From: Arenicella xantha
GTDB lineage: Bacteria; Pseudomonadota; Gammaproteobacteria; Arenicellales; Arenicellaceae
DNA: 64,000 bases
Reading direction: 5' to 3'
Assembly: GCF_003315245.1 (NCBI RefSeq)
Contig: NZ_QNRT01000002.1
Location: forward strand, 542,206-606,205
Shown here: positions 6,794 through 63,165 of the stretch, in pieces
How positions within the stretch are numbered: position 1 is the stretch's first letter
How the letters are laid out: each line of letters starts with the position of its first letter
Notes under the pieces: generated by a model
Told to the model about the DNA's origin: nothing
Databases searched by the model: none
Seen by the model: the letters and a program-made list of their open reading frames with translations, nothing else
Translations under genes and position numbers: made by a program

Positions 6794-8302
6794 TTATTGA
6801 ACCTCGTAAGCACCAATATCGCAGCGATTAAGCACTCGCACATACCCTCGTTGATCACGGCTCAATGGTGAACCGCTGATCGCGCTGACACAGTTGTTAG
6901 CGCCTGAGTCTACGGCATTACTTGCCGAAGAAATCGCGTGCGTCTGGGTAAATCCTCCATTATTGCTTAAATTTGAATCTAAACCTGACACGCTGCCAAG
7001 GCTAAACGGCAACGCAAACCCGTATGGCCCAGAGTTGGCTCCATTATTCGGGTCGCAGGACAATGTATCAGTCAGGTTATGCTCTCCAACAATGAAGCCA
7101 TTCGCGCCATTAAAGTCACACTCCACTCCGGTGTTTTTAGAAAAAATGGAATTTGATATCACTTTATCACCGGTATTTAACAAAGTATGAAAGCTTAGAA
7201 CCGAGCCGTTAGCTCGGTCTTTGCTGTGGTTCGCAAAGAATGTGCTGTTGGCAATACCGGCAAGGTCGTAGGCCGACCGAAACTCGATAGCTGAGCCTTG
7301 TTGTAATGCCGAATTTTGGCTAAAGGTTGAGTTATCCACAGACAGTGACTCAACACTAAGAGCACCTCCTTCAGTCGCGCTGTTTCCATAAAATGTCGAG
7401 CGTCGAATATCTAAGATATTTGTACCAATATCGTATAACGCACCACCGGCAAGCTCGGCGTTATTCTTGAAAAAAGTTTCATTAGTTAGCTTGGCATGCA
7501 GCGAGGGCGAGCCAAACGTCGAAAGAGCTATAGCGCCGCCCTCTCCAACCGCCGAATTTCCCGTATAGGTATTTTGATTCGCGCTGATATTATTGGTTTG
7601 CCACGCGAATATAGCCCCGCCGCTCCAAGACGTACCCGACCCAACCGGCTGCGCTTTATTTTGGTCAAAGGTATTTCGAAATATCTCTATGCCATCGCAA
7701 TAACCACAAGCTATCGCTCCACCGCCGCCATCGTTGTTGATTGGCAAGCTAGACAATACTTTATTCTGGCTAAATTCACTCTTACCAATCAACAAGTTGC
7801 TGTATGCACTAAGCGAGCTATTGTCACGCCCCGCTAAATAGATTGCACCACCGTAGCGCCCTGCGGTATTTCGCACGAAGGATACTTGCCAAATCTTGAG
7901 ATGAACCGCCAGAGCACAAAGCGAACCACCTTCGCGATATGCGGACGAACCACAAAGTGGCGCAACGAGGGAGTTACCATTGGTTAGCGTCAAGTCTTGT
8001 AAACCAACGCTGTCAGCGGATTCAAGTATATTAAAATGTCGTCCATCCTCGGTTGCATCAACAATGGTGTTTTGCTGACTCTCCCCAACAATTGTTAGTC
8101 GCTTATCGATGACTATGTCGTGTTCAAGATAGGTGCCGTTTCGTACGTATATTTGATCTCCAGCGCTGGCGGCAAAAACCGCACCGGCTATTGTTTGGTA
8201 TTGGCATCCACTAGTGCACACTTGCAACGTGGCGGCCTCACTCTGCTGACTATAATTTGCCGCCAGCAACAGCCCTAGACTCAGTATTATTTTATTTTTC
8301 AT
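6794..8302 (-). CDS. Secreted right-handed beta-helix protein, choice-of-anchor Q type
   Basis: 502 aa with a signal peptide (IILSLGLLLAANYSQQSEA). The opening ATLQVCTSGCQYQTI followed by IYVRNGTY is the usual first turn of parallel beta-helix (pectate-lyase fold) proteins; repeated N/G-rich turns (NTFDQNKAQPVG, GGAIALS, STFYGNSA, SIFSKNTG) fill the middle. It ends with RDQRGYVRVLNRCDIGAYEV, the typical choice-of-anchor Q terminus. No lyase catalytic residues are evident; glycan binding or degradation is possible. Start 8302 has AAGGAA upstream. It is clearly paralogous to the protein at 61513-63165. Confidence 0.88.
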   Translation of the reverse strand: MKNKIILSLGLLLAANYSQQSEAATLQVCTSGCQYQTIAGAVFAASAGDQIYVRNGTYLEHDIVIDKRLTIVGESQQNTIVDATEDGRHFNILESADSVGLQDLTLTNGNSLVAPLCGSSAYREGGSLCALAVHLKIWQVSFVRNTAGRYGGAIYLAGRDNSSLSAYSNLLIGKSEFSQNKVLSSLPINNDGGGGAIACGYCDGIEIFRNTFDQNKAQPVGSGTSWSGGAIFAWQTNNISANQNTYTGNSAVGEGGAIALSTFGSPSLHAKLTNETFFKNNAELAGGALYDIGTNILDIRRSTFYGNSATEGGALSVESLSVDNSTFSQNSALQQGSAIEFRSAYDLAGIANSTFFANHSKDRANGSVLSFHTLLNTGDKVISNSIFSKNTGVECDFNGANGFIVGEHNLTDTLSCDPNNGANSGPYGFALPFSLGSVSGLDSNLSNNGGFTQTHAISSASNAVDSGANNCVSAISGSPLSRDQRGYVRVLNRCDIGAYEVQ

Positions 8303-17184: not shown

Positions 17185-17718
17185 TCACTGTGGCAGAGCC
17201 AAACACATACAGTGCGCTTGAAGAGAATTGTCGGAACCACCACTTTCGTCATGATAGAAGTAGCATCCACTAAGATTTTGTTTCACGTAGCAGCCCATTA
17301 CATCTTCTTCACTGGCGTTTGATTTAAAGGTACCACACGAGATAGCGACTTCCCCTGCATTGCAATCCACCGATGTGTAGCCATTTGTTACGGGCGTAGC
17401 CGAACGACGGGTCAAATTGAAAGATGCTAGACCAGCCGGGCCCTGCGGGCCAGGTTCGCCTCTCGCTGCAACCAATCCCCAATGAGACGCAGCTGGGGGA
17501 CGATTGCTCTCAGTAGCGTCGTGCGAAACCAATGCTAGGTAACTATTACCATCATTTGATGCCACGTCGCCCTTGCTGTAAGTTTGACCAACCAACCACT
17601 CACCGCGCCAGTTACTTTCTTCGCCACCCAGTGGAATGACCACTACTTTATTATGGGCAGAAGTCGTTCCAGACCACAGCACGGCGATTACTAAAGATAC
17701 TAAAACTAGCTTATACAC
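17185..17718 (-). CDS. Secreted protein: KVVVIPL motif, CBM5/12-like module, collagen-like triplets
   Basis: 177 aa from GTG 17718, chosen over GTG 17727 because GGAG then sits 8 bases upstream. Signal peptide ends TTSA/HN; the mature protein begins NKVVVIPLGGEE, a motif shared with the proteins at 28561 and 55617. Next, WLVGQTYSKGDVASNDGNSYLALVSH followed by SHWGLVA is the carbohydrate-binding module 5/12 (chitin-binding-like) pattern of aromatic residues. Then GEPGPQGPAG gives three collagen-like triplets. The C-terminal 80 residues contain several Cys (SVDCNAGEVAISCGTF, GCYVKQNLSGCYF), likely disulfide-bonded. Probably an extracellular binding protein. Confidence 0.8.
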   Translation of the reverse strand: MYKLVLVSLVIAVLWSGTTSAHNKVVVIPLGGEESNWRGEWLVGQTYSKGDVASNDGNSYLALVSHDATESNRPPAASHWGLVAARGEPGPQGPAGLASFNLTRRSATPVTNGYTSVDCNAGEVAISCGTFKSNASEEDVMGCYVKQNLSGCYFYHDESGGSDNSLQAHCMCLALPQ

Positions 17719-18268
17719 GCTTGGCACTCCATTGAGTAAAAGGTTAGAAACCTTGTTTTTGAACTAAGCAGGGGCAATCAAACCGAGACGATAAACACTG
17801 TTTCACTATTCGCCATGTGTTTGTCGAGACCACAAACACCTACAAGAAAATTTTAGCTAACCGGCATTGCCAAAATTTACCTAACGCTTGGCTTCGCGCA
17901 AACATTGCAGCGCATATTTTTGACCCAACTAAATTCTGTTATCCCACACGAGCGCCAACCGGTCAAAGGACCATATGGCCCTCCGCAGAGATTCTGCAAC
18001 AAGCTAAAAATGTATATCTAACAAAATCACGCAGTTCTCGTGTACTAACGAGGATCAAAAGTTGAGTAGTCCATGACTCCCATGCTAAGTCCTTGGTTGC
18101 TTCGCTGGCTAGTTATTGAATTGCCTTCTAGACCTCAGTCTACTTCCTAAGCTCAGTAAAAATATATAGAGTATCCCCGCGTATGTAATGAGCCTATTGG
18201 GAACCACTTACTAGTTCATGCTGATTGATTTTGGCGGTCATTTACTGCGCACGTTATCTAACTATTTA
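17719..18268. other. Intergenic region with inverted repeat
   Basis: About 550 bases without a convincing gene. GTGTTTGT (17817-17824) and ACAAACAC (17832-17839) form a perfect 8-bp inverted repeat about 100 bases upstream of the gene starting at 17718, a possible operator. A GTG-initiated 82-residue frame (17817-18065) begins inside that repeat and lacks a ribosome-binding site; I regard it as chance. Confidence 0.4.
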
Positions 18269-28560: not shown

Positions 28561-29091
28561 ATGCACCGAAGCCTATGTACAAGCGCCCTACTGTTGTTGC
28601 TCAGCACAACTCAGTCGGTGGCACAAAATAAAGTTGTGGTAGTGCCATTACTGGGCGATGAAGACCAGCCGTCCACTTACCAACAAAGCGGCGACTTGAA
28701 CAATGCGCTTTACGATATCTTCAGCCACAGCAGCCATCCCTTTGGCACGCCGATAGGCCCTTCGGTAATATTCAATAAACAAAGTGACGATACTGCATTA
28801 GAAGCCTTTCTGTTCAGCCATATTAGAATCCGCGGTCTCTCAGCTGAAGTAAGTGCGCCGTTTTGTCAGTTTACCCTGCTTGCCAATGGTAGTGAGCCCA
28901 GTTATTACAACCGCGCTGGACTAGACAACGACCGTAGAGAGGATGAGGTTTCACTCTGGTCGGTATATCAAAATCTACCTAAGGGCGTCTACGAGTTTCG
29001 TGTTTACGCATGGACAAACTCTATCGCACTCGACGTTGGGCTAGACCCCAACGGCTATGGCGGTCGGATAATCGTGAAAGAAACGAGATAA
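28561..29091 (+). CDS. Secreted protein with KVVVVPL mature N-terminus
   Basis: 176 aa; GGAG 9 bases upstream of ATG 28561. Signal peptide ends TQSVAQ and the mature chain starts NKVVVVPLLGDED, nearly the same motif as at 17185-17718 and 55617-56177. The remainder is predicted beta-rich (SHIRIRGLSAEVSAPFCQFTLLANG, KGVYEFRVYAWTNS), perhaps a jelly-roll; no catalytic residues. Stand-alone gene followed by the convergent RecQ gene. Not a family I can name. Confidence 0.78.
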   Translation: MHRSLCTSALLLLLSTTQSVAQNKVVVVPLLGDEDQPSTYQQSGDLNNALYDIFSHSSHPFGTPIGPSVIFNKQSDDTALEAFLFSHIRIRGLSAEVSAPFCQFTLLANGSEPSYYNRAGLDNDRREDEVSLWSVYQNLPKGVYEFRVYAWTNSIALDVGLDPNGYGGRIIVKETR

Positions 29092-50483: not shown

Positions 50484-51205
50484 GAATTAGCGTCAGGCGC
50501 ACAATTACTGAGTCCAACGCACCGAATACTGAACGCCAAGTTGAGAACATAAACAAACAGCAATTAAAGATCGCTACCCCTTGCCGAGTATAGGTAGCAA
50601 CACTCATGTGACAAGCAAGCCAGACCACCGCATTCAATCTAGCGCCACCTGAAAACGACGCCCTTGCTTTCCGACAATAGCGAGTAATGGAAAATTGGCG
50701 CCTATCTGCATATAACGGCAGGCCGTACAATTAATATTTGAATGACCTTTAAGCACATCACGGCGTACGCCAGCCACATCGATATCAAACCGCAATGTGG
50801 CTGGACTACACGTCTGAAGCATAATTAACATCGCCCCCGGCCATGCTAATTTCGACTTAGTGCTTTCATTAGCCTACCGGCATCGAACTGGTAGCAACAC
50901 GCTCAATCGTGATCGGCGTTAACTAAACCCAGCAGAATCCGACAAAATTAAAAAGAGAATAACCAAAAAGATCAATCGCTTACATATAGTCTATTTGACT
51001 AATTTATTTATTGAGCTTACCATACGCGCCCCACGGAATCGATTAAGCACGGCTGCAGACTAGTTGACAACTATTCAGCCTTGCGGTTTCGGCCGTTACC
51101 CTATAAGCAATAACACCAGCTTGCTAACCGGCTTTCAGACAAGTTGCATACTCACCATTCGCTTCATTGCTGAAGCAAACAACAAGATACCCCCTACTCT
51201 ATCCC
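50484..51205. other. Intergenic region, mostly without genes
   Basis: About 720 bases. A minus frame at 50634-50831 (65 aa) is the only one worth listing. The stretch 50935-51020 is AT-rich and may contain the promoter of the beta-helix gene at 51206. No repeat or hairpin recognised. Confidence 0.4.
50634..50831 (-). CDS. Possible small protein (65 aa), doubtful
   Basis: Opens MLIMLQTCSPATLRFDIDV and ends KQGRRFQVALD, with GGGGGC ahead of the ATG acting as a weak ribosome-binding site. Three Cys but no recognised motif. Protein-like composition; no independent support. Confidence 0.3.
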   Translation of the reverse strand: MLIMLQTCSPATLRFDIDVAGVRRDVLKGHSNINCTACRYMQIGANFPLLAIVGKQGRRFQVALD

Positions 51206-53359
51206 ATGAACCTAAATAAACTTATTAGCCTGATCTGCATCACCGCATCATGCAGTCATTTAGTACAGGCGCAATCCATTTCAGTAGAAAACCAAATCAA
51301 CCGAATCGTGCCGATCGTTACCTATATGCTGCTCGCTGACTCGCCTTGCATAACCGAGTTATCCAGCGTTACAGAAAACCAATGCGTATTGATCGAGGAA
51401 CACCTAAATCTAAACGGTGAAACGATAGACTTGCCGTCTAACGTCACCTTGAAATTTGCCGATGGTTCGCTCACCAATGGCAGCATTAACTTTAATGGTG
51501 GCTCGATTGATGGCGAGTTGCTAAACGCCTACTTAAATATTACTGGAACAGTCCAACTAAGCAACCCGATGGTCGAATTCGTTACTTCACGCTGGGATGT
51601 GGTTGAAGGTGAAGTCACTGATTTACGCGCCACACAAAACACCGAGGGCATGAATGAAGCTATTCAAAAAGTTCATAGCTTGGGCGGCACAACCTTGAAA
51701 ATCGGCACACTTGACGCTTACTTTTACGGACGTGGCGGTTTAAATGGTCGTCACATTTATTACAGTAAAGAAGGCGCTTTGGAAAATGCCATCTTGATGC
51801 CGTCAAACTTCCACTTCATGATGAGTAAAACCACCATGCTGCGGGTACAACCATCCAATAACCCGGCCGACAGATTACTCGCAATAGTGAATGAGAGTAA
51901 CGTTACGATTAGCGGTGGCAATCTGATTGGTGACCGATTCGAACACGATTATGCTTGCGTCGAAGACGTAGACGGGCTGCGACGAACAACACATGAATAT
52001 GGAGCACTCATTGCCCTGTACGGTGCACACGACAGTCTAATAGACAATGTGATTATGGACAAATCAACGGGCGATGGAATATCAGCTCTTGGAACTGGTC
52101 TACGCGCGGCATCTGGCGAGTTACAAGGCAACAACCGTGAAAACTTTAGAGTCACTATTAATAAATCGACTATCAATCGGTCTCGCCGAAATAATATAAG
52201 CTTGACTGATGGTCGCACAATTATATTAACTGAAAACACCTTCAGCAACGCTGGCCATGGAGAGCAAATACCACAACGCCAATACAAAAGAGCCTTGGCG
52301 CCCGGTGAAGTGACTAAGGATCCGGTTGGCGGCCGTGGCTGCGCTTTTGAATTAGACCAGAACGGCCAAAAGATTCCCTTGTTTATCGATAATGGCGTGA
52401 TCTCTGAAACGGGTACTAATCCGTATTTTTTCGCTACTCCGAATACCGCGGGCACCCTGCCTCGCTCTGGAATCGACTTAGAATCCTTTAGGGGGCGCGC
52501 AGCGGATGGCACTTTGATACAGTACGAACGAATTAGTGATGTACACCTAAGTAGAAACACATTTACCGGCAACACCACCGATTTGGTTCTGTTTTCCACA
52601 GATCATGTATACATTGATCGGAACTACTTTACCGATGGAATTAATGCCACTCAAGCAGCGGATCAAGTTTGGATCACCAATAACACCTTCATGCGTGGCG
52701 ACGCTGAAACAAACCCCTATGTGCTAGCCAACCGCGCAATTTCGGTTAACTCAGTGATCAAGAAAGTTCAAGGAGTCGACACACAGTTAGTGCACGATTT
52801 TGAGATATCCGGCAACACGATCGTCGGCTATGACGCTGGCATGATTTTACGCGGCAACAATCTTGAGGTTCACCACAATTACATCAAGGATTCATTAACT
52901 GGTTTTACTTTCGAAAAGCAAGGTGAGAACATTCACCTGTACGACAACACCATCTACAGTAGAAAGAAGCTCTACAATGACCAAGGCCAAGCAACTCGAT
53001 CTAGCACTGGCTACCATTTCTTCGCTGCGCCAAAAATGAAAAATGTGGTTATCGAAAATATCGAATATAACGTCGCTGGCAGCCCGCAATATTTTGATGA
53101 CGGAACTGAAAAAGGCAGTACTGATATTGGTTATCGTCCTCTAGATATGGATCGATTCAATGCCGGATTACCATTCGGGCCGGAGCCGCAACTCACGATC
53201 GACAAAGCTATTTTTAAATCATCGGTCTTCGCTGGGCAGATCTACTCGTCGAATTCGCAGGGCGTGGTAATTAAGAACAGTCGAATCGGTGACAATATTG
53301 AAAACAAATTCATCAACGGGTCGACCGTCACCTTGGAAAATAATACCGGACTAGATTAA
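51206..53359 (+). CDS. Large secreted right-handed beta-helix protein
   Basis: 717 aa from ATG 51206. Signal peptide (LNKLISLICITASCSHLVQA), then a post-signal hydrophobic stretch (RIVPIVTYMLLADS). DLPSNVTLKFADGSLTNGSINFNGGSID begins the first helix; residues 130-700 contain rungs (NVTISGGNLIGDRF, SLIDNVIMDKSTGDGISALG, NNISLTDGRTIILTENTFSNAG, DVHLSRNTFTGNTTDLVLFSTDHVYIDRNYF). Pectate-lyase/pectin-esterase-fold size, possibly a polysaccharide lyase or hydrolase; no catalytic triad is certain. Two inverted repeats follow the stop. Confidence 0.85.
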   Translation: MNLNKLISLICITASCSHLVQAQSISVENQINRIVPIVTYMLLADSPCITELSSVTENQCVLIEEHLNLNGETIDLPSNVTLKFADGSLTNGSINFNGGSIDGELLNAYLNITGTVQLSNPMVEFVTSRWDVVEGEVTDLRATQNTEGMNEAIQKVHSLGGTTLKIGTLDAYFYGRGGLNGRHIYYSKEGALENAILMPSNFHFMMSKTTMLRVQPSNNPADRLLAIVNESNVTISGGNLIGDRFEHDYACVEDVDGLRRTTHEYGALIALYGAHDSLIDNVIMDKSTGDGISALGTGLRAASGELQGNNRENFRVTINKSTINRSRRNNISLTDGRTIILTENTFSNAGHGEQIPQRQYKRALAPGEVTKDPVGGRGCAFELDQNGQKIPLFIDNGVISETGTNPYFFATPNTAGTLPRSGIDLESFRGRAADGTLIQYERISDVHLSRNTFTGNTTDLVLFSTDHVYIDRNYFTDGINATQAADQVWITNNTFMRGDAETNPYVLANRAISVNSVIKKVQGVDTQLVHDFEISGNTIVGYDAGMILRGNNLEVHHNYIKDSLTGFTFEKQGENIHLYDNTIYSRKKLYNDQGQATRSSTGYHFFAAPKMKNVVIENIEYNVAGSPQYFDDGTEKGSTDIGYRPLDMDRFNAGLPFGPEPQLTIDKAIFKSSVFAGQIYSSNSQGVVIKNSRIGDNIENKFINGSTVTLENNTGLD

Positions 53360-54339: not shown

Positions 54340-55329
54340 TTACTGACCAGGAATTAACCCACCACTGTGTTCGAAGGTATTTCCTGAAACAATCTTGTCG
54401 CTACTATTAATTAGAATATGGCCGAATCTAACTTCTTTATCGTCATTTTCATCCGCGTTAATACGGCCAAATTTATTATCGCGCACTACAATATCAGTCA
54501 TGCCTTCGCCAATAGGCAAACTCCAATTACCACCGATCAGCCAATTATTCTCGATAACGATTCCATCGATACCGCTATCGGGAGCATCGTCGTGTTGGTG
54601 TAGAAAAATTGTAGCATTGGATTTATAGGGATCTACCAGTTCATTTACCGCCATATCAAAAAAGTTATTGCGATAAACGTGATTTTCCCAACGGCCGGAA
54701 GTAATGGTACCTTGCACACCATCAGCATGCGCTCCGCTCTTTGCGCCTAAATCATATACCCAACAGTTTTCCATAGTAAAATTACTGCCCTGTACCTTAA
54801 CCCCATCACCACCACTTTCGTGAATTTCTAATCGACGCAAAGTTACGCCGTTTCGGACAATCACCGGGGCACTGGTATTGTTTCGCCCACCTTTAATTTC
54901 ACCATCCTCAATCAGGACATTTTCTACCCCATCATAGTTAGTTTGCAATAAATACAAACCATCTGCTGACACTCGAAAATTTCGAACGATGACATTAGGC
55001 GCTTCAATTTTAAGTGATCCAGCGATGTCTAGATTTTCGACGATAAATGGGTCTTCAACCGTACCAGCACCACCACCAGCCCAATTCGCACGCACCCTCA
55101 CACTACCGCTAGCCACCAGCAGGCTTTCATTCGTCGGCCCAGTATTTTGCGGCCCTGGTTTATCTGATGGAGTTGGGACCGGTGGCGTAACCGGATCGGT
55201 TGGCTCAGCGGTGGTATCGCTATTCAGCACCAGGTCAATGACTGGTGGAATAGTGGAAGCCTGAGCCGACAAAATTGCAGTAAACAATAGTGGAAATAGA
55301 AGTGGTTTTATTATCGCAGACGCTCTCAT
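54340..55329 (-). CDS. Secreted right-handed beta-helix protein, pectate-lyase-like
   Basis: 329 aa. Signal peptide (IIKPLLFPLLFTAILSAQA), then a Pro/Thr-rich linker (PTDPVTPPVPTPSDKPGP), then a beta-helix from residue about 80: SLKIEAPNVIVRNFRVSADG, VENVLIEDGEIKGGRNNT, RRLEIHESGGDGVKVQGSNFTMENCWVYDLG, GIVIENNWLIGG. GAHADGVQG is an H-x-D-G-x-Q pattern seen in polysaccharide lyases and binding proteins of this fold. Likely acts on or binds extracellular glycans. Confidence 0.85.
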   Translation of the reverse strand: MRASAIIKPLLFPLLFTAILSAQASTIPPVIDLVLNSDTTAEPTDPVTPPVPTPSDKPGPQNTGPTNESLLVASGSVRVRANWAGGGAGTVEDPFIVENLDIAGSLKIEAPNVIVRNFRVSADGLYLLQTNYDGVENVLIEDGEIKGGRNNTSAPVIVRNGVTLRRLEIHESGGDGVKVQGSNFTMENCWVYDLGAKSGAHADGVQGTITSGRWENHVYRNNFFDMAVNELVDPYKSNATIFLHQHDDAPDSGIDGIVIENNWLIGGNWSLPIGEGMTDIVVRDNKFGRINADENDDKEVRFGHILINSSDKIVSGNTFEHSGGLIPGQ

Positions 55330-55616
55330 TTATAGCACTTAAGTATTTGATAATTATAGATCGATGGCATTCTACACAACAATTAGTGATAGCGCTGATT
55401 TACGATTCTTCAACCTGCAGAATATACCTATTGTGAGTTCAGTCACGAAAAACAAACCGACAAGGATCAAACACTAAATTCCTATAATATTACCAAGCGC
55501 CGACTCGCTAAGTGGCCATTCTGCCCGTTGCGCTTAGCCGATTGAGTAGCGTAAATTGCCGTCAAACAAAGTACTTCATGCCCTTATTCCAAACCCAATC
55601 AAACAGGCAATTTCGT

Positions 55617-56177
55617 ATGAGAAAATATTTTCCGCAACTACTTATGGCTTCTTTCGCGCTACTTATTTCAGTACAACACAATACCGTTTTGGCACAGTCT
55701 CAAGCGCCGAAAGTTGTGGTGATACCGTTAGGCAGTGAATCCAAAACTATTCATGAGCCCGGCGTTGCACAGAGTCTAAATTTTTCGAATACCGCCCTAG
55801 AGACAAACACCACAACACTCGACGAAGTGCAGCTAAACGCACCAGCTGCGGGTTATGCCCAAGTTATGGCTACTTTTACCGTACTCATCTTCCATGTATC
55901 AGGAGGATTCGACACTCTGGCCTACTTTAACCTTCAAGAATCTCAAGGCAATGTCGCCACCGGGGTTGCATGGATCGAGAGTGTTGACGCAAACGCCCCG
56001 ACAGGACTGTATCGACGCATTGTTACGGTACAGAAGATATTGGAGATTGACGAGGCCGGCCCTATAACTTATTACCTAACCGGTCAGAAAGGCAACGGTG
56101 GTGGCGATGTGCGTTTTGATCAAGTGTATTTGTCGGCTATCTATTTTGCTAAAACGTATGGAGCCAGCACTGAATAA
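55617..56177 (+). CDS. Secreted protein with KVVVIPL mature N-terminus
   Basis: 186 aa from ATG 55617, chosen because the chain then opens with a signal peptide (KYFPQLLMASFALLISVQHNTVLA). The mature part begins QSQAPKVVVIPLGSES, sharing KVVV[IV]PL with the proteins at 17185 and 28561. The remainder is beta-rich (YAQVMATFTVLIFHVSGG, LYRRIVTVQKILEID, GDVRFDQVYLSAIYFAK), no Cys, perhaps a jelly-roll. No catalytic motif. Single gene. Confidence 0.78.
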   Translation: MRKYFPQLLMASFALLISVQHNTVLAQSQAPKVVVIPLGSESKTIHEPGVAQSLNFSNTALETNTTTLDEVQLNAPAAGYAQVMATFTVLIFHVSGGFDTLAYFNLQESQGNVATGVAWIESVDANAPTGLYRRIVTVQKILEIDEAGPITYYLTGQKGNGGGDVRFDQVYLSAIYFAKTYGASTE

Positions 56178-57919: not shown

Positions 57920-58357
57920 AACAGAGTCCGGAAGGGGATAAGAAATAAGGCTGCGGAGTCTACAGACTTATTGTTTTTGAGTATATGGCATCGCAGGCGC
58001 AAATCGCAATTATGACCTGCGCTTGCCCTGCATGCACTTACATTGTTAGCCGCAATAAGGCATTGCCACGCGGATTAAACCGAACAATTCGTGATTGATG
58101 ACGGCTGGTTCAAGTCGAACCTATGGCAAAAACCACGATGATTACGCTACTTACGCAACGCTGAATAATGACTAACGCCGATTCATGTTTTCGCCACCAA
58201 CATTAACTTAATTTCATAATCGAAATATTCTGAAACTAAAAAACCTTCTTCTGCATCTAAACCATAGTCGGCGCTTCTAAAACACAAAAGAAATGCGCCA
58301 TGAGTAAGCAAAGCCGCTAACTCAAACAAAAACTTAATGCCTAAGAGAGTAGTACTA
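57920..58357. other. Intergenic region with a Cys-rich relic
   Basis: About 440 bases between ybiT and the sulfotransferase-like gene, divergent. A short Cys-rich frame at 58012-58098 is listed separately. The stretch 58200-58260 is AT-rich and could hold the promoter for the downstream plus-strand genes; no clear hexamers. Confidence 0.4.
58012..58098 (+). pseudogene. Possible relic of a bacterial metallothionein
   Basis: A 28-aa frame starting MTCACPACTYIVSRNKALPRG. Bacterial metallothioneins typically open with C-A-C-x-x-C-x-C-x-V and a Lys-Ala-Leu/Val stretch followed by a Gly; here the fourth Cys is Tyr (TAC versus TGC, one base) and the remaining Cys-rich tail is absent, replaced by RTIRD and stop. 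No good ribosome-binding site. Either a truncated relic or a coincidence; the Cys spacing is the only evidence. Confidence 0.3.
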
Positions 58358-59428
58358 ATGACAGAGCACGCTGTTGCGCTTTTTGCCGCCGAAGAATCCT
58401 GGCACTCGATCCTTGAATCTCCTGCCTATTTCTTACATCGAATAGATCTGCAAAACCAGTCATTTGAGTTTATACACACAAATCGTGAAACGCTTAATTC
58501 CAATTCGTTTCTTGACGGCCGCACACCCCTTTCGCACACCGATAAATCTTACATACTGCCTATTAAAGACTCTTTGGAGTGGTACAACAAATCAATAGTG
58601 CCCTCTCATGTGAATCGGTTCATTTTTCATATGTCATTTTGCGGTTCGACATTAGTCGCGCGCGCGCTCGATAAACCCGGCACCGCAATCGGCTATAAAG
58701 AACCTCAAATTCTGTTGGAGCTGGCTGAGATCAAAGCGGCGAACATCGATTGGTTTCGCAATAAAGTGCAATGGCAAACATTAGTCGGGTTCGTCTTATC
58801 GCAACTGAATAAGCAATGGTCGCCTGGTGAGTCAGTAGTAATCAAGCCATCTAACTGGGCCAACTCAATGTTACCGCAGTTAATCGAAGATGGCGGTTTC
58901 TCTCGGGCGTTGTTCTTAAGTACATCACCGATCGATTTTCTGATATCGGTATTTCGTGGCGGCGGTGAACGGATCCAATTCACCTACTCCGTTCTAAAGC
59001 ACCTTCTAACGGCTTTTCCAGAATTTACAAAAATAGTAGCCAACGTAGAATCGCAAAAACTCACTACCGTAGAAATGTTTGCCCGCTTATCGCTTATTCT
59101 GCATGCCATTCAATGCAAAGCATTTGAGCGGGCAAAAGCCAACAGCCATTTGAAAACTCACGCAGAGTGCAGCTACCAAGACCTACAGAAAAATCCGGCC
59201 ACTTGCTTAGAACTAGCCGCGACTACACTCGACCTCAATTTCACCATGGAGCAACTGAATCATTCAATCAATAACACGTTTTCGCAGCATGCCAAGATCA
59301 CTCAAAGAAACTATAATACCCAAGACGCACAACACGTAGATCAGCAGGTTCTCGCGGTTTATGGCGACACATTTTCGCGCACTTTTACTTGGGCGGAAAA
59401 AAACCTTATCCCTTCGGACTTCTTCTAA
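58358..59428 (+). CDS. P-loop sulfotransferase-like protein
   Basis: 356 aa from ATG 58358; ATG 58337 is an alternative. FIFHMSFCGSTLVARALDKPG resembles the 5'-phosphosulfate-binding loop of sulfotransferases (T/S-x-R-S-G-S-T/S-L), with S-F-C-G-S-T-L. GESVVIKPSNWANSML would correspond to the 3'-phosphate side, and SRALFLSTSPIDFLISVFRGGGE follows the usual V-R-D-P-x-D pattern loosely. No signal peptide. First of three plus-strand genes: it ends at 59428 and the 2OG oxygenase starts at 59431, so translation is probably coupled. Activity is inferred; key residues are diverged. Confidence 0.72.
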   Translation: MTEHAVALFAAEESWHSILESPAYFLHRIDLQNQSFEFIHTNRETLNSNSFLDGRTPLSHTDKSYILPIKDSLEWYNKSIVPSHVNRFIFHMSFCGSTLVARALDKPGTAIGYKEPQILLELAEIKAANIDWFRNKVQWQTLVGFVLSQLNKQWSPGESVVIKPSNWANSMLPQLIEDGGFSRALFLSTSPIDFLISVFRGGGERIQFTYSVLKHLLTAFPEFTKIVANVESQKLTTVEMFARLSLILHAIQCKAFERAKANSHLKTHAECSYQDLQKNPATCLELAATTLDLNFTMEQLNHSINNTFSQHAKITQRNYNTQDAQHVDQQVLAVYGDTFSRTFTWAEKNLIPSDFF

Positions 59429-59430
59429 GC

Positions 59431-60153
59431 ATGAGCACAATGATAAAAATGGCCAAGCTCAACAGCTTGCAGCAAATCAGCCAGACCTATCAACGCAGCT
59501 CTCGCGTACAAATAGTTGATTTTTTGGAATCAGAGAGTGCGCAACATATCTATGATGCACTGAAATCACAAACGCAGTGGAACCTTGCGTGGAATTTGGA
59601 TGGCCAGCACCAAGACATGGATTACACCGCTGTGCAAAATTGGACACAAAAACAAAGAGAGCAGCTCGACGAGCTTATTTATGCACAAGCGTCGGATAGC
59701 TTTCAATATCGGTATGCGTCGGTTCCAATCTACGATATTTATCAGCAGAATCTATTACCAGGACACTTTTTCAACTCGATCTATGAGTTTTTCAATAGCG
59801 ATGAACTACTCACACTAGCACGCCAAGTAACCGGTTTTGAGCAGATCGACTTCGCAGACGTACAGGCGACACGTTACTCCAAAGGGCATTTTTTAACTGA
59901 GCACGACGATAATGTCGCCGGCAAAAACCGTCTGGCTGCCTTCGTACTAAACCTGACACCAAAATGGAAATTTGATTGGGGCGGTGGCTTAGTTTTTCCA
60001 GATAAAAACGATCAAGCCGAGACATGGTTTCCCAAGTTCAATGCATTGAACATTTTCACAGTTCCACAGAAACACGCAGTGACGGTAGTCAGCCCTTTTG
60101 CAACAGAGGAAAGATACGCCCTAACCGGCTGGTTCCGATCCCACCAAAGCTAG
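59431..60153 (+). CDS. 2-oxoglutarate/Fe(II) oxygenase, prolyl-hydroxylase-like
   Basis: 240 aa starting two bases after the sulfotransferase-like stop. The double-stranded beta-helix carries Fe ligands His158 and Asp160 (FLTEHDDNVAGKNRL), distal His215 (VPQKHAVTVVSPF) and the 2OG-binding Arg228 (EERYALTGWFRS), i.e. the H-x-D...H plus Arg pattern. KWKFDWGGGLVFP fits the Tpa1/Ofd1/prolyl-4-hydroxylase-like subgroup, which hydroxylates protein side chains or peptides. Together with the neighbours it suggests post-translational or small-peptide modification. Confidence 0.88.
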   Translation: MSTMIKMAKLNSLQQISQTYQRSSRVQIVDFLESESAQHIYDALKSQTQWNLAWNLDGQHQDMDYTAVQNWTQKQREQLDELIYAQASDSFQYRYASVPIYDIYQQNLLPGHFFNSIYEFFNSDELLTLARQVTGFEQIDFADVQATRYSKGHFLTEHDDNVAGKNRLAAFVLNLTPKWKFDWGGGLVFPDKNDQAETWFPKFNALNIFTVPQKHAVTVVSPFATEERYALTGWFRSHQS

Positions 60154-60301
60154 CGGCTACCTTTCCGAAACAACCTAAAGCTACATCCCAGAGTGCGTTG
60201 TTCTTTTCAGCGTTGCAACAAAGACCGCTACGATAACGCATTTTAGCTGCATACCGGGCTCGAGTGACACAATCGGCTTGACTGTTTAAAAGGTCAGAGG
60301 C

Positions 60302-61186
60302 ATGCTCGCGCGCATGGCAAAGCGATTCCACAAAGTTCATATCGAGATAAGCAATATTTGCAATCTGCAATGCAGCTTCTGCCCAGCCGTTATTCGTGAC
60401 AACAAGATGATGGACCTGGATCTATTTCGCGATATCGTAAAACAGGTGGCGCCCCTAACCGAACTTGTATGCCTTCACTTAATGGGCGACCCCTTAGTCC
60501 ATCCTAAGCTTGAGGCAATGATAGAGATATGCGACGAATATGACGCGAACCTATTTTTAGTCACCAACGGAGTTTTGCTGCGCCCCGAAAAATACACTCT
60601 AATGTTGCATCGGCGTTTTTACCAAATCAATTTTTCGCTACACAGCTTTTTCGATAATTTCCCGGACAAAGACCCAAGCAACTATCTGGAACGAATCTTT
60701 GCGTTCACCGAACGCGCGCTCATCGAACGACCCGACCTGTATTTGAATTTCCGTTTGTGGAACCTCAATGATCCGCTTGGCAGTCAAACCCCAAACACTG
60801 AGATGTTAGAGCGGATATGCCAGCGCTTTGATTTTAACGCACCAAGCGAGCTCGATGTACGCAAACGCAAAAGCATTAATATCAAGAATCGACTCTACCT
60901 ACATTTTGACACAGAGTTCATTTGGCCCAGCTTAGATCTCCCTGTGCTTGGCACTAGCGGAAAATGTTATGGCTTATCATCGCATTTTGGCGTACTCGTT
61001 GACGGTACTGTTGTGCCCTGCTGCCTCGACAAAGAAGCAGCAATACCTTTAGGTAAAGTGCAAGACGCATCCATTCTAGATATTTTAGGGTCACGTCGAG
61101 CGCAAGATATCGTCAAAGGTTTTAAACAAAAGCAGCTAGTCGAAAAACTGTGCCAGCGTTGCCAGTACATTGAGCGTTTTAATTAA
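60302..61186 (+). CDS. Radical SAM protein with SPASM-like C-terminal Cys motif
   Basis: 294 aa. EISNICNLQCSFCPAVI has the CX3CX2C cluster (Cys20, Cys24, Cys27) that binds the 4Fe-4S used to cleave S-adenosylmethionine; LHLMGDPLVHPKLEAM and FLVTNGVLL are the GGE-like and Thr-Asn-Gly motifs. The C-terminus (FGVLVDGTVVPCCLDKEAAIPLGKV, LCQRCQYIERF) is SPASM/Twitch-like, for auxiliary clusters as in peptide-modifying enzymes. AAGG lies 9 bases before the ATG. It follows the 2OG oxygenase by 148 bases. Confidence 0.9.
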   Translation: MLARMAKRFHKVHIEISNICNLQCSFCPAVIRDNKMMDLDLFRDIVKQVAPLTELVCLHLMGDPLVHPKLEAMIEICDEYDANLFLVTNGVLLRPEKYTLMLHRRFYQINFSLHSFFDNFPDKDPSNYLERIFAFTERALIERPDLYLNFRLWNLNDPLGSQTPNTEMLERICQRFDFNAPSELDVRKRKSINIKNRLYLHFDTEFIWPSLDLPVLGTSGKCYGLSSHFGVLVDGTVVPCCLDKEAAIPLGKVQDASILDILGSRRAQDIVKGFKQKQLVEKLCQRCQYIERFN

Positions 61187-61512: not shown

Positions 61513-63165
61513 ATGCGTCAATTTATCCTATTCTCATTTGTAATTCTTATTTGCTCAACAGTCCCGGCAACATCAGCAACTTTAGAGGTCTGTAGTGCCT
61601 GTCAGTACAACTCAATTTCCGATGCACTGTTGAATGCAGAGCCAAATGATACCGTGTATGTGCATGACGGTACCTACAATGAGTTCAATCTAAACATCTT
61701 CGCCGACGATATAACTATTACAGGTCAGAGCCGAGACGGCACCATTATCGATGCGGACGGTCTCGGGCGACATTTCAACTTTACCTCTGCTGGTTCGAAA
61801 ACAACCATTCAAAACCTGACTCTGAAAAATGGTGTTGGCTCTCCGGGAGTGTGCTCAGTCCAAGGTCAAGGTGGCTCGATTTGCGCAAGAAATGTGGCAC
61901 TCAACATCGACGCGGTAACATTTCAAAATAATATTGGAGTGGCAGCTGGGGGCGCAATACATTTGGACGGCGACCCTTCGATACCTCGATCGCTGTCGAT
62001 CAAAAATTCAACGTTCAGTGATAACCATTTAATTGAAGCGCCCAGCTTACTGCTCGCTCAGGGATTTGGCGGTGCAATCGCGTGTGTCAGCTGTGATAGG
62101 TTGTCGATAGACTCTTCAATTTTCCAAAAAAATAGTAGCCATATAGAACTAGTCGGGCCCGATAATGCCGGCATCGGTGGGGCTATCTGGATGGCTCAAT
62201 CGGCCTTTAACCCAAACTCAATACAGTTTACCAGCACAAATAATACGTTTGACTCAAATCGCTCGCTTAAGGAAGGTGGCGCCATTGCCCTCTATGCGCC
62301 GCGTTCAAGTCATAACGATCTCTCGAGCTATACGATCAGTGAAACAGCATTTATTAACAACTACGCAGGCACAAAAGGGGGCGCGATATTTTTTGGGAAT
62401 TTATCGTCCTTGGGCGATCCTGCCTTGGTAGCGCTAAATATTGAGCGTTCGTTGTTTCACAAAAATCGCGCCGCAAACGGCGGCGCACTAGCGTCAGTTA
62501 ATATGTCCGTGCTAAGCGAAGATTCAACATTTTCAATGAATACCGCATCTATTACTGGGGGCGCTGTTGAACTATATCGAAACAATATTGTTGAGTCACA
62601 GAGTCATCACTTTGCAAATGTCAGCTTTATTGCAAATAGAGTCCTTGATCAAAACGGCGCCGCAGTATTCGCCTTCTCGATCAACCCAACATTGTACCTA
62701 ACCTCAAACACTCTGTTTCTCGGAGAGCTACAGCTTTTCAACTCGATCGTGCATAACAGTAACGGAGTCGAATGCGTATTTTCTGGTGGGCAACAGGTGA
62801 TCGTCGGGGAACATAACTTCACTAACGACGACAGCTGTGAACCGTCACCGAGCGCTAACCTCAGCGTGCTCGGTTCAGCAGAGCCATTTAGCCTTGGGAG
62901 CGTAAATGGTATAGATACACGACTCGCCGCAAATGGCGGCCCTACCCTAACCTACGCATTACTAAAGGGTAGTAATGCAATCAACGCAAGTACAAACAAT
63001 TGCCCCAGCGTGATACGCCCATCATCTCGCAAACGCTTCGATCAACGTGGAGAAAACCGTAGCGCGCGCTCTCCATTCAGCCTCTCAACTCTAGTGTGTG
63101 ACGTTGGCGCGTATGAATATATAGAAAGGAGCGTTAATGTAGGCCGCAACACAGTAACGAAATAG
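61513..63165 (+). CDS. Secreted right-handed beta-helix protein, choice-of-anchor Q type (paralogue)
   Basis: 550 aa; signal peptide (FILFSFVILICSTVPATSA), then ATLEVCSACQYNSISDALLNAE and VYVHDGTYNEFNL. It matches the protein at 6794-8302 in order and wording: DGRHFN/LGRHFN, LQDLTLTNG/IQNLTLKNG, GGAIACGYCDGIEIF/GGAIACVSCDRLSID, and the Q-type C-terminus (DQRGENRSARSP...CDVGAYEY). It ends with a basic tail. The two genes are about 53 kb apart in opposite orientation. Possibly a glycan-binding or degrading surface protein; no active site assigned. Confidence 0.87.
   Translation: MRQFILFSFVILICSTVPATSATLEVCSACQYNSISDALLNAEPNDTVYVHDGTYNEFNLNIFADDITITGQSRDGTIIDADGLGRHFNFTSAGSKTTIQNLTLKNGVGSPGVCSVQGQGGSICARNVALNIDAVTFQNNIGVAAGGAIHLDGDPSIPRSLSIKNSTFSDNHLIEAPSLLLAQGFGGAIACVSCDRLSIDSSIFQKNSSHIELVGPDNAGIGGAIWMAQSAFNPNSIQFTSTNNTFDSNRSLKEGGAIALYAPRSSHNDLSSYTISETAFINNYAGTKGGAIFFGNLSSLGDPALVALNIERSLFHKNRAANGGALASVNMSVLSEDSTFSMNTASITGGAVELYRNNIVESQSHHFANVSFIANRVLDQNGAAVFAFSINPTLYLTSNTLFLGELQLFNSIVHNSNGVECVFSGGQQVIVGEHNFTNDDSCEPSPSANLSVLGSAEPFSLGSVNGIDTRLAANGGPTLTYALLKGSNAINASTNNCPSVIRPSSRKRFDQRGENRSARSPFSLSTLVCDVGAYEYIERSVNVGRNTVTK

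Follow-up and report, generated by a model that had tools for sequence, protein, structure and literature searches.

We analyzed a 64,000-nucleotide stretch of the genome of Arenicella xantha (contig NZ_QNRT01000002.1, positions 542,206 to 606,205; this whole stretch is called the window below), in which three open reading frames (ORFs) lie on one strand, as a preliminary description made from the sequence had reported. We designate them A, B, and C; they encode a sulfotransferase-like protein, a 2-oxoglutarate (2OG)-Fe(II) oxygenase, and a radical S-adenosylmethionine (SAM) protein, respectively. Our results show that an above-chance association holds for the A-B pair and fails for the trio. 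Of the cassette of modification enzymes proposed in the preliminary description, A and B are, judging from conserved gene order, a real unit, whereas C is an accidental neighbor. The explanation that we favor, and that we regard as probable rather than secure, is that A-B is a two-enzyme module related to a modification gene set linked to TonB-dependent receptors, in which B would hydroxylate a target and A would act on the hydroxyl, with C unrelated. This explanation rests on gene content, linkage, phylogeny, predicted fold, and motifs, from which we infer the chemistry, the cofactor, and the substrate.

RESULTS

A and B form a conserved pair

In the congener G004 (L and G numbers denote our loci and genomes), A and B are present in the same order and with the same 2-base gap, at 62% and 73% identity, among other neighbors; the 2-base spacing between the stop codon of A and the start of B that had been described for the window was confirmed. 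Each protein was searched in 109 genomes of the order Arenicellales, where A had matches at E ≤ 1e-3 in 6 genomes and B in 11, and in two wider draws that overlap (genome G120, for example, is in both), a class draw of 229 genomes and a phylum draw. A and B shared genomes more often than expected by chance: of the seven A-containing genomes that the class draw held outside the genus, three also had B (p = 4e-5), as did three of six in the phylum draw (p = 6e-4); these p values treat the genomes as independent, and their thresholds were picked after the lists had been seen.

The order search yielded 10 A places, all fetched with wide flanks, and 22 B places, of which 13 were used first, 3 were added later, and 6 weak ones were left out. 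From the class draw we kept 13 of 24 A places (E ≤ 1e-30) and 12 of 25 B places (E ≤ 1e-50), leaving out 11 and 13 weaker ones, respectively, and the non-own A and B places of the phylum draw were used. To these we added L001, L002, and the plasmid loci L120 and L121, which represent two of the nine plasmid records with B relatives (four of the nine cover 80% or more of the query); a search of plasmid records for relatives of A found none. Motif counts and trees are based on 25 A rows and 40 B rows, and three further B genes enter only the linkage count (43 genes). Linkage counts exclude A hits shorter than 690 bases and B hits shorter than 540 bases.

In the trees, the B protein of the window falls into a clade of 7 of the 40 rows (support, 100/99), which comprises L045, L055, L056, L157, and L159, all in the cassette loci described below, and the window and L043, both A-B pairs. 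The A protein of the window belongs to a clade of 5 of the 25 rows (100/100; the window, L043, L044, L151, and L155), and four of these five genomes encode a member of the B clade of the window. L044 (9882-10919; G016) and L151 (9975-11027; G772) hold lone A genes, the B clade mate being located elsewhere in the genome, inside a receptor cassette. The fifth genome, G588, has A directly beside a convergently oriented B gene of another clade. In a separate A clade (L060, L061, L087, and L153; support, 97/92), a divergent gene for a TauD-type oxygenase lies less than 150 bases away in all four cases (Table 1). Some 2OG oxygenase gene is found within 10 kb of 19 of the 25 A genes, with B itself within 10 kb of 10; five A loci (L044, L090, L093, L151, and L156) have no scanned gene nearby. 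As far as gene neighborhoods indicate, A proteins tend to pair with some 2OG oxygenase, the type tracking the A clade.

A-B relatives in a locus linked to TonB-dependent receptors

The A and B paralogs of the own genome (contig C1, 785-805 kb; L051) and those of congeners lie in the same conserved locus. Its first part consists of genes for an aspartyl-protease-like protein, a small protein, an extracytoplasmic function (ECF) sigma factor, an EF-hand protein, and one or two B-type oxygenases. The rest encodes an Asp/Asn beta-hydroxylase (PF05118; AspH), one or more A-type proteins, one or two tetratricopeptide repeat (TPR)-Sulfotransfer_3 proteins (TPR-sulfotransferases; ST), a methyltransferase (MT), a protein with TPR and 2OG-FeII_Oxy_5 (OG5), and a TonB-dependent receptor (TBDR). 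The small gene beside the sigma factor gene is anti-sigma-like by its position alone. Gene content varies, and no receptor locus is guaranteed to hold every gene: A-type proteins are encoded in four of the six well-covered receptor loci (L051-L054) and are absent from L045 and L055, and L056, a 4.3-kb contig, has AspH, ST, and MT in view and no receptor in view. The statement in the preliminary description that no transporter is nearby thus holds for the window and does not extend to the related loci, which carry a TonB-dependent receptor. A small ORF of 24 residues was also seen near two receptor loci, L051:2780-2854 (+) and L054:15510-15584 (-), the two copies being 96% identical.

The same core occurs in a second family of this class, in the order TBDR-OG5-MT-AspH-ST-B-B (L157 and L159), and a partial core occurs elsewhere in the phylum, in genomes of different classes (L152, L154, and L161). 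In L157:347-15927 and L159:235-15823, the cassette is followed on the same strand by a DUF3450-MotA_ExbB-ExbB-ExbD operon, with TonB_C shown in L159, and L169 carries genes similar to the DUF3450/ExbB/ExbD operon by BLAST. The gene order suggests that the operon following the L157 and L159 cassettes is a dedicated energy system.

A gene was counted as linked when the DNA fetched around it held a marker (ST, AspH, TBDR, OG5, or MT) no more than 10 kb away. A marker was found for 14 of the 25 A genes, which occupy 24 loci, and for 28 of the 43 B genes, corresponding to 22 of 37 loci; an A gene was near 11 of the B genes. Markers were thus present in 22/37 B loci and 0/9 C loci (Fisher's test, p = 0.0016, with related loci not being independent), and some marker matches are weak, such as the TBDR hit of L166 at 32 bits. 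The loci without a marker include short contigs and contig ends as well as full neighborhoods (L160, L162, L165, and L090), and the window, L043, and L155 hold bare A-B pairs. A p value for sulfotransferase enrichment (5/9), for which the density in the own genome (11 hits) was applied to other genomes, is rough and was not relied on. Taken from gene content, the A-B pair appears to be a satellite of the receptor-linked set, lying outside it in the window and in G004.

A is predicted to have a sulfotransferase fold with an unusual active site

An alignment of ten homologs fits a start of A at the ATG at 58358 better than one at 58337; residue numbers are counted from 58337, which makes the Met at 58358 residue 8. 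No family of NCBIfam or PHROGs matched A, and Pfam gave two matches, both below the cutoff and at chance level (E = 0.054 and 0.089). An AlphaFold2 model of A (predicted local distance difference test [pLDDT] score, 83.4; predicted template modeling [pTM] score, 0.84) had 18 matches at E ≤ 0.001 in a Foldseek search against the PDB, the best being a domain of CurM from curacin biosynthesis (6.1e-5) and human TPST1 (1.7e-4). The 50 Foldseek matches listed all belong to the sulfotransferase superfamily, of which we take retinol dehydratase to be a member. In hhalign comparisons, the A family gave probabilities of 84 and 87 with TPR-sulfotransferases and 0.1 with the B family, used as a control. 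Predicted fold and profile comparison thus place A in the sulfotransferase fold superfamily, in support of its earlier description as sulfotransferase-like. An unrelated P-loop family was also considered for A and was ruled out by the PDB profile hits, the Foldseek matches, and the control value.

Sulfotransferases that use 3'-phosphoadenosine-5'-phosphosulfate (PAPS) feature an Arg in the 5'-phosphosulfate loop, an Arg...Ser 3'-phosphate motif, and a catalytic Glu or His together with a Lys. Six residues, S104, T105, E122, P123, K170, and K320, are invariant in all 25 A homologs. Like PAPS-dependent sulfotransferases such as TPST and the bacterial TPR-Sulfotransfer_3 proteins, A combines the fold with a Ser/Thr loop at the phosphosulfate position and an aligned Glu: E122 aligns with an invariant Glu of the TPR-sulfotransferases, presumably the equivalent of the catalytic base in TPST. 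A differs from them at the two positions aligned with the PAPS-site arginines, position 101 in the loop, where the eight TPR-sulfotransferases compared have RSG[ST]T, and position 196 in the 3'-phosphate motif; the Ser of that motif, at position 204, is Ser in 12 of the 25 A proteins. A also lacks TPR repeats and any Pfam or NCBIfam match, unlike the TPR-Sulfotransfer_3 proteins. The two aligned arginines presumably hold PAPS in sulfotransferases, and because these positions are never Arg in A, sulfonation by A is not assured. A thus appears to retain the sulfotransferase fold, and some of the active site may be kept as well, without the usual PAPS anchors. K170 was considered as the counterpart of the sulfotransferase Lys; this was dropped, as hhalign places the invariant K170 two columns away from the Lys of the TPR-sulfotransferases.

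B resembles the catalytic part of OGFOD1 and TPA1

B has 240 amino acids in one domain and matches 2OG-FeII_Oxy_4 (PF13661) in Pfam above the cutoff (2.3e-20). The Fe/2OG site, described earlier as intact, proved to be highly conserved in the B family (PF13661/PF13640): the HxD...H triad of H158, D160, and H215 is present in 40/40 homologs, and the 2OG-binding R228 is present in 39/40. In a profile search based on 15 homologs, the nearest PDB sequences were OGFOD1 (2e-14) and TPA1 (5.8e-10), prolyl hydroxylases that share the HxD...H site and the 2OG-binding Arg with B. OGFOD1 and TPA1 are two-domain proteins, with solved chains of 562 to 647 residues, in contrast to the single domain of B, which matches only their catalytic part (residues 154-259 of a 562-residue chain and residues 94-226 of a 633-residue chain).

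A B relative in a putative ribosomal peptide locus

On plasmid pBSY18_3 of Blastomonas sp. strain RAC04 (NZ_CP016459.1; L121:1334-3698), a B relative lies between two ORFs of 60 amino acids. Their first 16 residues are similar and end in Ser-Gly-Ala-Gly, which we take to resemble a double-glycine-type leader, and one of the ORFs has Lys-Gly-Ser repeats. The neighbors include genes for a C39-peptidase ATP-binding cassette (ABC) transporter (Peptidase_C39, 1.7e-33), an HlyD protein, an outer membrane efflux protein, and a 324-amino-acid protein with no match in Pfam or NCBIfam. L121 is therefore a putative locus for a ribosomally synthesized and posttranslationally modified peptide (RiPP), and it is the only locus at which a precursor and an exporter were found beside the enzymes. 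The earlier observation that no precursor peptide or transporter is nearby is, by the searches made, accurate for the window and does not apply to this B relative. The B protein of L121 groups (100/98) with that of L120, which is located on a Sphingomonas plasmid beside two TonB-dependent receptor genes, and with that of L155, which is paired with A. The context of L121 and this grouping make a ribosomal peptide a credible substrate for part of the B family.

A precursor peptide beside the window pair was considered and rejected, as neither a search with a regular expression for leader-like ORFs nor a comparison of small ORFs turned one up. The regular expression had no match in the window and isolated, chance-like matches only at L089, L125, and L163, and when the Blastomonas peptides were used as tblastn queries, the best match outside L121 had an E value of no less than 0.017.

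C is a separate gene of this lineage

For C, the internal ATG at 60314 fits the homologs better as a start than that at 60302. Pfam identified Radical_SAM (2.6e-12) and SPASM (3.8e-12), both above the cutoff. The CX3CX2C motif and the C-terminal Cys residues noted earlier are real and invariant in 9/9 sequences (C20-X3-C24-X2-C27, C222, C240, C241, C284, and C287); the C-terminal Cys residues number only five, and a full SPASM domain has more. By sequence (5.3e-8) and by predicted fold (1.3e-10), C is most similar to BtrN among the SPASM/twitch radical SAM enzymes, although the middling confidence of the model (pLDDT, 71, with several stretches below 50) makes its fold matches indicative only. 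C differs from BtrN and its kin in that all close copies detected belong to this order. Matches to C at E ≤ 1e-3 occur in 22 of the 109 genomes of the order, and the close copies (78-100% identity) occur in 9, including the own genome; the next match has 34% identity over partial length. In the class draw, matches at E ≤ 1e-40 were found in 2 of 229 genomes, the own genome and G017, both of the genus.

The preliminary description had named homologous loci in which the three genes are not kept together as evidence against its cassette, and this is what synteny revealed. C adjoins A and B only in the genome of the window (1/25 A genes, 1/43 B genes, and 1/9 C loci). In G004, contig C12 carries the adjacent genes A and B and contig C323 carries C, and in G016 the three genes are on three contigs. 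The order argS-SPOR gene-C was found in five of the nine close C loci (from gene clusters, with Pfam for one), and the remaining four C genes (window, G002, G009, and G024) have different surroundings. The own genome has the argS block, with genes about 52-89% identical to those of the congeners, but without C. The own block (L127:7924-7982) also lacks a low-molecular-weight (LMW) phosphatase gene, which congeners have slightly beyond C, and a PALP-type gene, which is present in four of the five argS loci. Since these two genes are absent alongside C, the difference from the congeners may involve a whole segment, either lost here or gained there. In L048 and L050, the sequence preceding C resembles that of the window over approximately 25 bases. 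The 148 bases that separate the start of C from B mean that C is not tightly coupled to A-B. The synteny in the order, together with the class draw, indicates that C is a gene of this lineage that is unrelated to A-B and adjoins the pair only in the lineage of the window.

DISCUSSION

That A and B cannot be assigned to any described pathway, as stated in the preliminary description, still stands. In the function that we propose, B would use Fe(II) and 2-oxoglutarate to hydroxylate a protein or peptide residue, as OGFOD1 and TPA1 do, and A would then act on the new hydroxyl, for example, by sulfonating it or by a similar transfer reaction. The substrate would be the TonB-dependent receptor or an associated peptide. 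A bolder version of this proposal, which we offer tentatively and consider rather doubtful, is that A founds a new sulfotransferase-fold family with unusual PAPS handling that works in tandem with 2OG-Fe(II) hydroxylases of the B, TauD, and Asp/Asn types to modify a TonB-dependent receptor or a companion peptide, with A capping or activating the hydroxyl, possibly so that it can leave in a dehydration reaction. If this is true, A and the hydroxylases would constitute an unrecognized posttranslational modification system of outer membrane uptake. A set of predicted protein- or peptide-modifying genes beside TonB-dependent receptors spans several classes of one phylum, and A represents a sulfotransferase-fold family that is unnamed in Pfam, NCBIfam, and PHROGs and in which the customary cofactor arginines are missing. 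As the gene set is conserved, mass spectrometry of a single receptor would put receptor modification to a direct test. A literature search found no title or abstract opening on receptor-linked sulfotransferases with hydroxylases; as few subscription journals were covered, this is weak evidence of novelty.

Several observations weigh against the function that we favor. With respect to A, the TM-scores to sulfotransferases are modest, at 0.26-0.42 by query length, and a PDB profile search gave 17 hits at E ≤ 10, of which just one was below 0.001. This hit, 2zq5 (1.9e-5), is annotated merely as an uncharacterized protein, and the remainder are mostly sulfotransferases, with GCN4 and a peptide deformylase at chance level. 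Among the 25 A proteins, position 101 is F in 12, H in 8, Y in 4, and L in 1, and position 196 is Arg in none. With respect to linkage, no marker lies within 10 kb of 15 of the 43 B genes (15/37 loci) or 11 of the 25 A genes (11/24 loci), and a scan of the window for the other cassette genes (receptor, TPR-sulfotransferase, AspH, OG5, and MT) found none. In three of the six genomes of both draws that have A and B (G366, G772, and G711), the two genes are on different contigs or far apart. Finally, the searches yielded no substrate for A-B, and a comparison of the window with L043 found no small ORF in common.

The absence of Arg from both PAPS-site positions in 25/25 A proteins raises the possibility that A is a noncatalytic partner with a sulfotransferase fold, a substrate holder or adaptor, and that B alone performs the chemistry; the variation of its partners among kinds of 2OG oxygenase (B, AspH, and TauD) points in the same direction. 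We consider this unlikely, as the six residues that are invariant in 25/25 A proteins are conserved in the way expected of an active site. A second alternative concerns the target, which might be a small molecule or glycan, such as a ligand imported by the receptor, rather than a protein. The receptor linkage is compatible with ligand uptake, some members of both enzyme families act on small molecules, and by fold A is closest to the polyketide domain of CurM; however, the nearest relatives of B are the protein hydroxylases OGFOD1 and TPA1, the leading fold matches of A include TPST structures, and a B relative sits between two precursor-like peptides, so that a small-molecule target also seems improbable to us.

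The Blastomonas locus, with its two leader-like ORFs, C39 ABC exporter, HlyD protein, and outer membrane protein, suggests a further alternative in which the pair tailors an unlinked ribosomal peptide and the link to the receptor reflects import or sensing of that peptide. The B protein of this locus is close to those of L120, with its two receptors, and L155, with its A pair. The searches made detected no peptide of this kind in either the window or L043, and elsewhere the regular expression had three isolated matches; we give this alternative little credence, comparable to that of the two preceding ones. Joint action of A, B, and C in the lineage of the window, despite the young arrangement, would be consistent with their common strand, with the distance of less than 150 bases between B and C, and with the resemblance of the predicted fold of C to the peptide-modifying radical SAM enzymes SuiB, EpeE, and SkfB. 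Eight of the nine close C genes, however, have no A or B nearby, and genomes G002, G007, G010, G017, and G024 have C without any A or B hit, making such cooperation highly improbable. A two-enzyme module of A and B, related to the receptor-linked set, remains the explanation that we prefer.

The receptor-linked cassettes can be compared with known systems. The operon of L157 and L159 resembles Vibrio-type TonB2 systems (TtpC, ExbB2, ExbD2, and TonB2) in containing DUF3450, MotA_ExbB twice, and ExbD; the sulfotransferase, oxygenase, and methyltransferase genes of the cassettes are additional. The TonB2 system also includes TtpB2 and TtpD2 (PMC6957404). We propose that one of these two may be the DUF3450 protein. 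In our literature search, no paper linking sulfotransferase, oxygenase, and methyltransferase genes with TonB2 was found. In Pontixanthobacter, two sulfotransferases and an aspartyl beta-hydroxylase appear at neighboring cluster numbers, near lasso peptide entries, in a source whose covered parts present a co-occurrence table without a pathway; this run differs from the receptor cassette in also having lasso B2, PqqD-family, and asparagine-synthase-related entries (PMC10040529).

Coordinates and neighboring genes

TABLE 1 Coordinates of the genes in the window and of A genes paired with TauD-type oxygenase genes
Feature	Coordinates	Strand or orientation	Description
Gene A	58337..59428	+	Predicted sulfotransferase-fold protein; family without Pfam/NCBIfam model; likely start, 58358
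A-B gap	59429..59430	+	2 bases, from A stop to B ATG; equal length in congener G004 (L043)
Gene B	59431..60153	+	Single-domain 2OG-Fe(II) oxygenase; nearest PDB sequences, OGFOD1 and TPA1
Gene C	60302..61186	+	Radical SAM/SPASM-twitch protein; judged outside the A-B unit, relocated neighbor
A and TauD-type pair	L060:6534-8517	Divergent	
A and TauD-type pair	L061:1868-3863	Divergent	
A and TauD-type pair	L087:8077-10185	Divergent	
A and TauD-type pair	L153:9499-11440	Divergent	

Proteins of the parallel beta-helix type, apparently secreted (Beta_helix/NosD and Chlam_PMP repeats), are encoded around the pair at 51167-53359 (+), 54340-55329 (-), and 61513-63165 (+), and the ORF at 6794-8302 (-) resembles the last of these by eye only. 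The window also encodes small, apparently secreted proteins in which, by eye, a KVVVIPL-like segment follows a signal-peptide-like start, at 17185-17727 (-), 28561-29091 (+), and 55512-56177 (+), the last of which had no hit in Pfam. A small protein with a KVVVIPL-like segment, likewise recognized by eye, is encoded near an A gene of G016 (L044:17986-18537).

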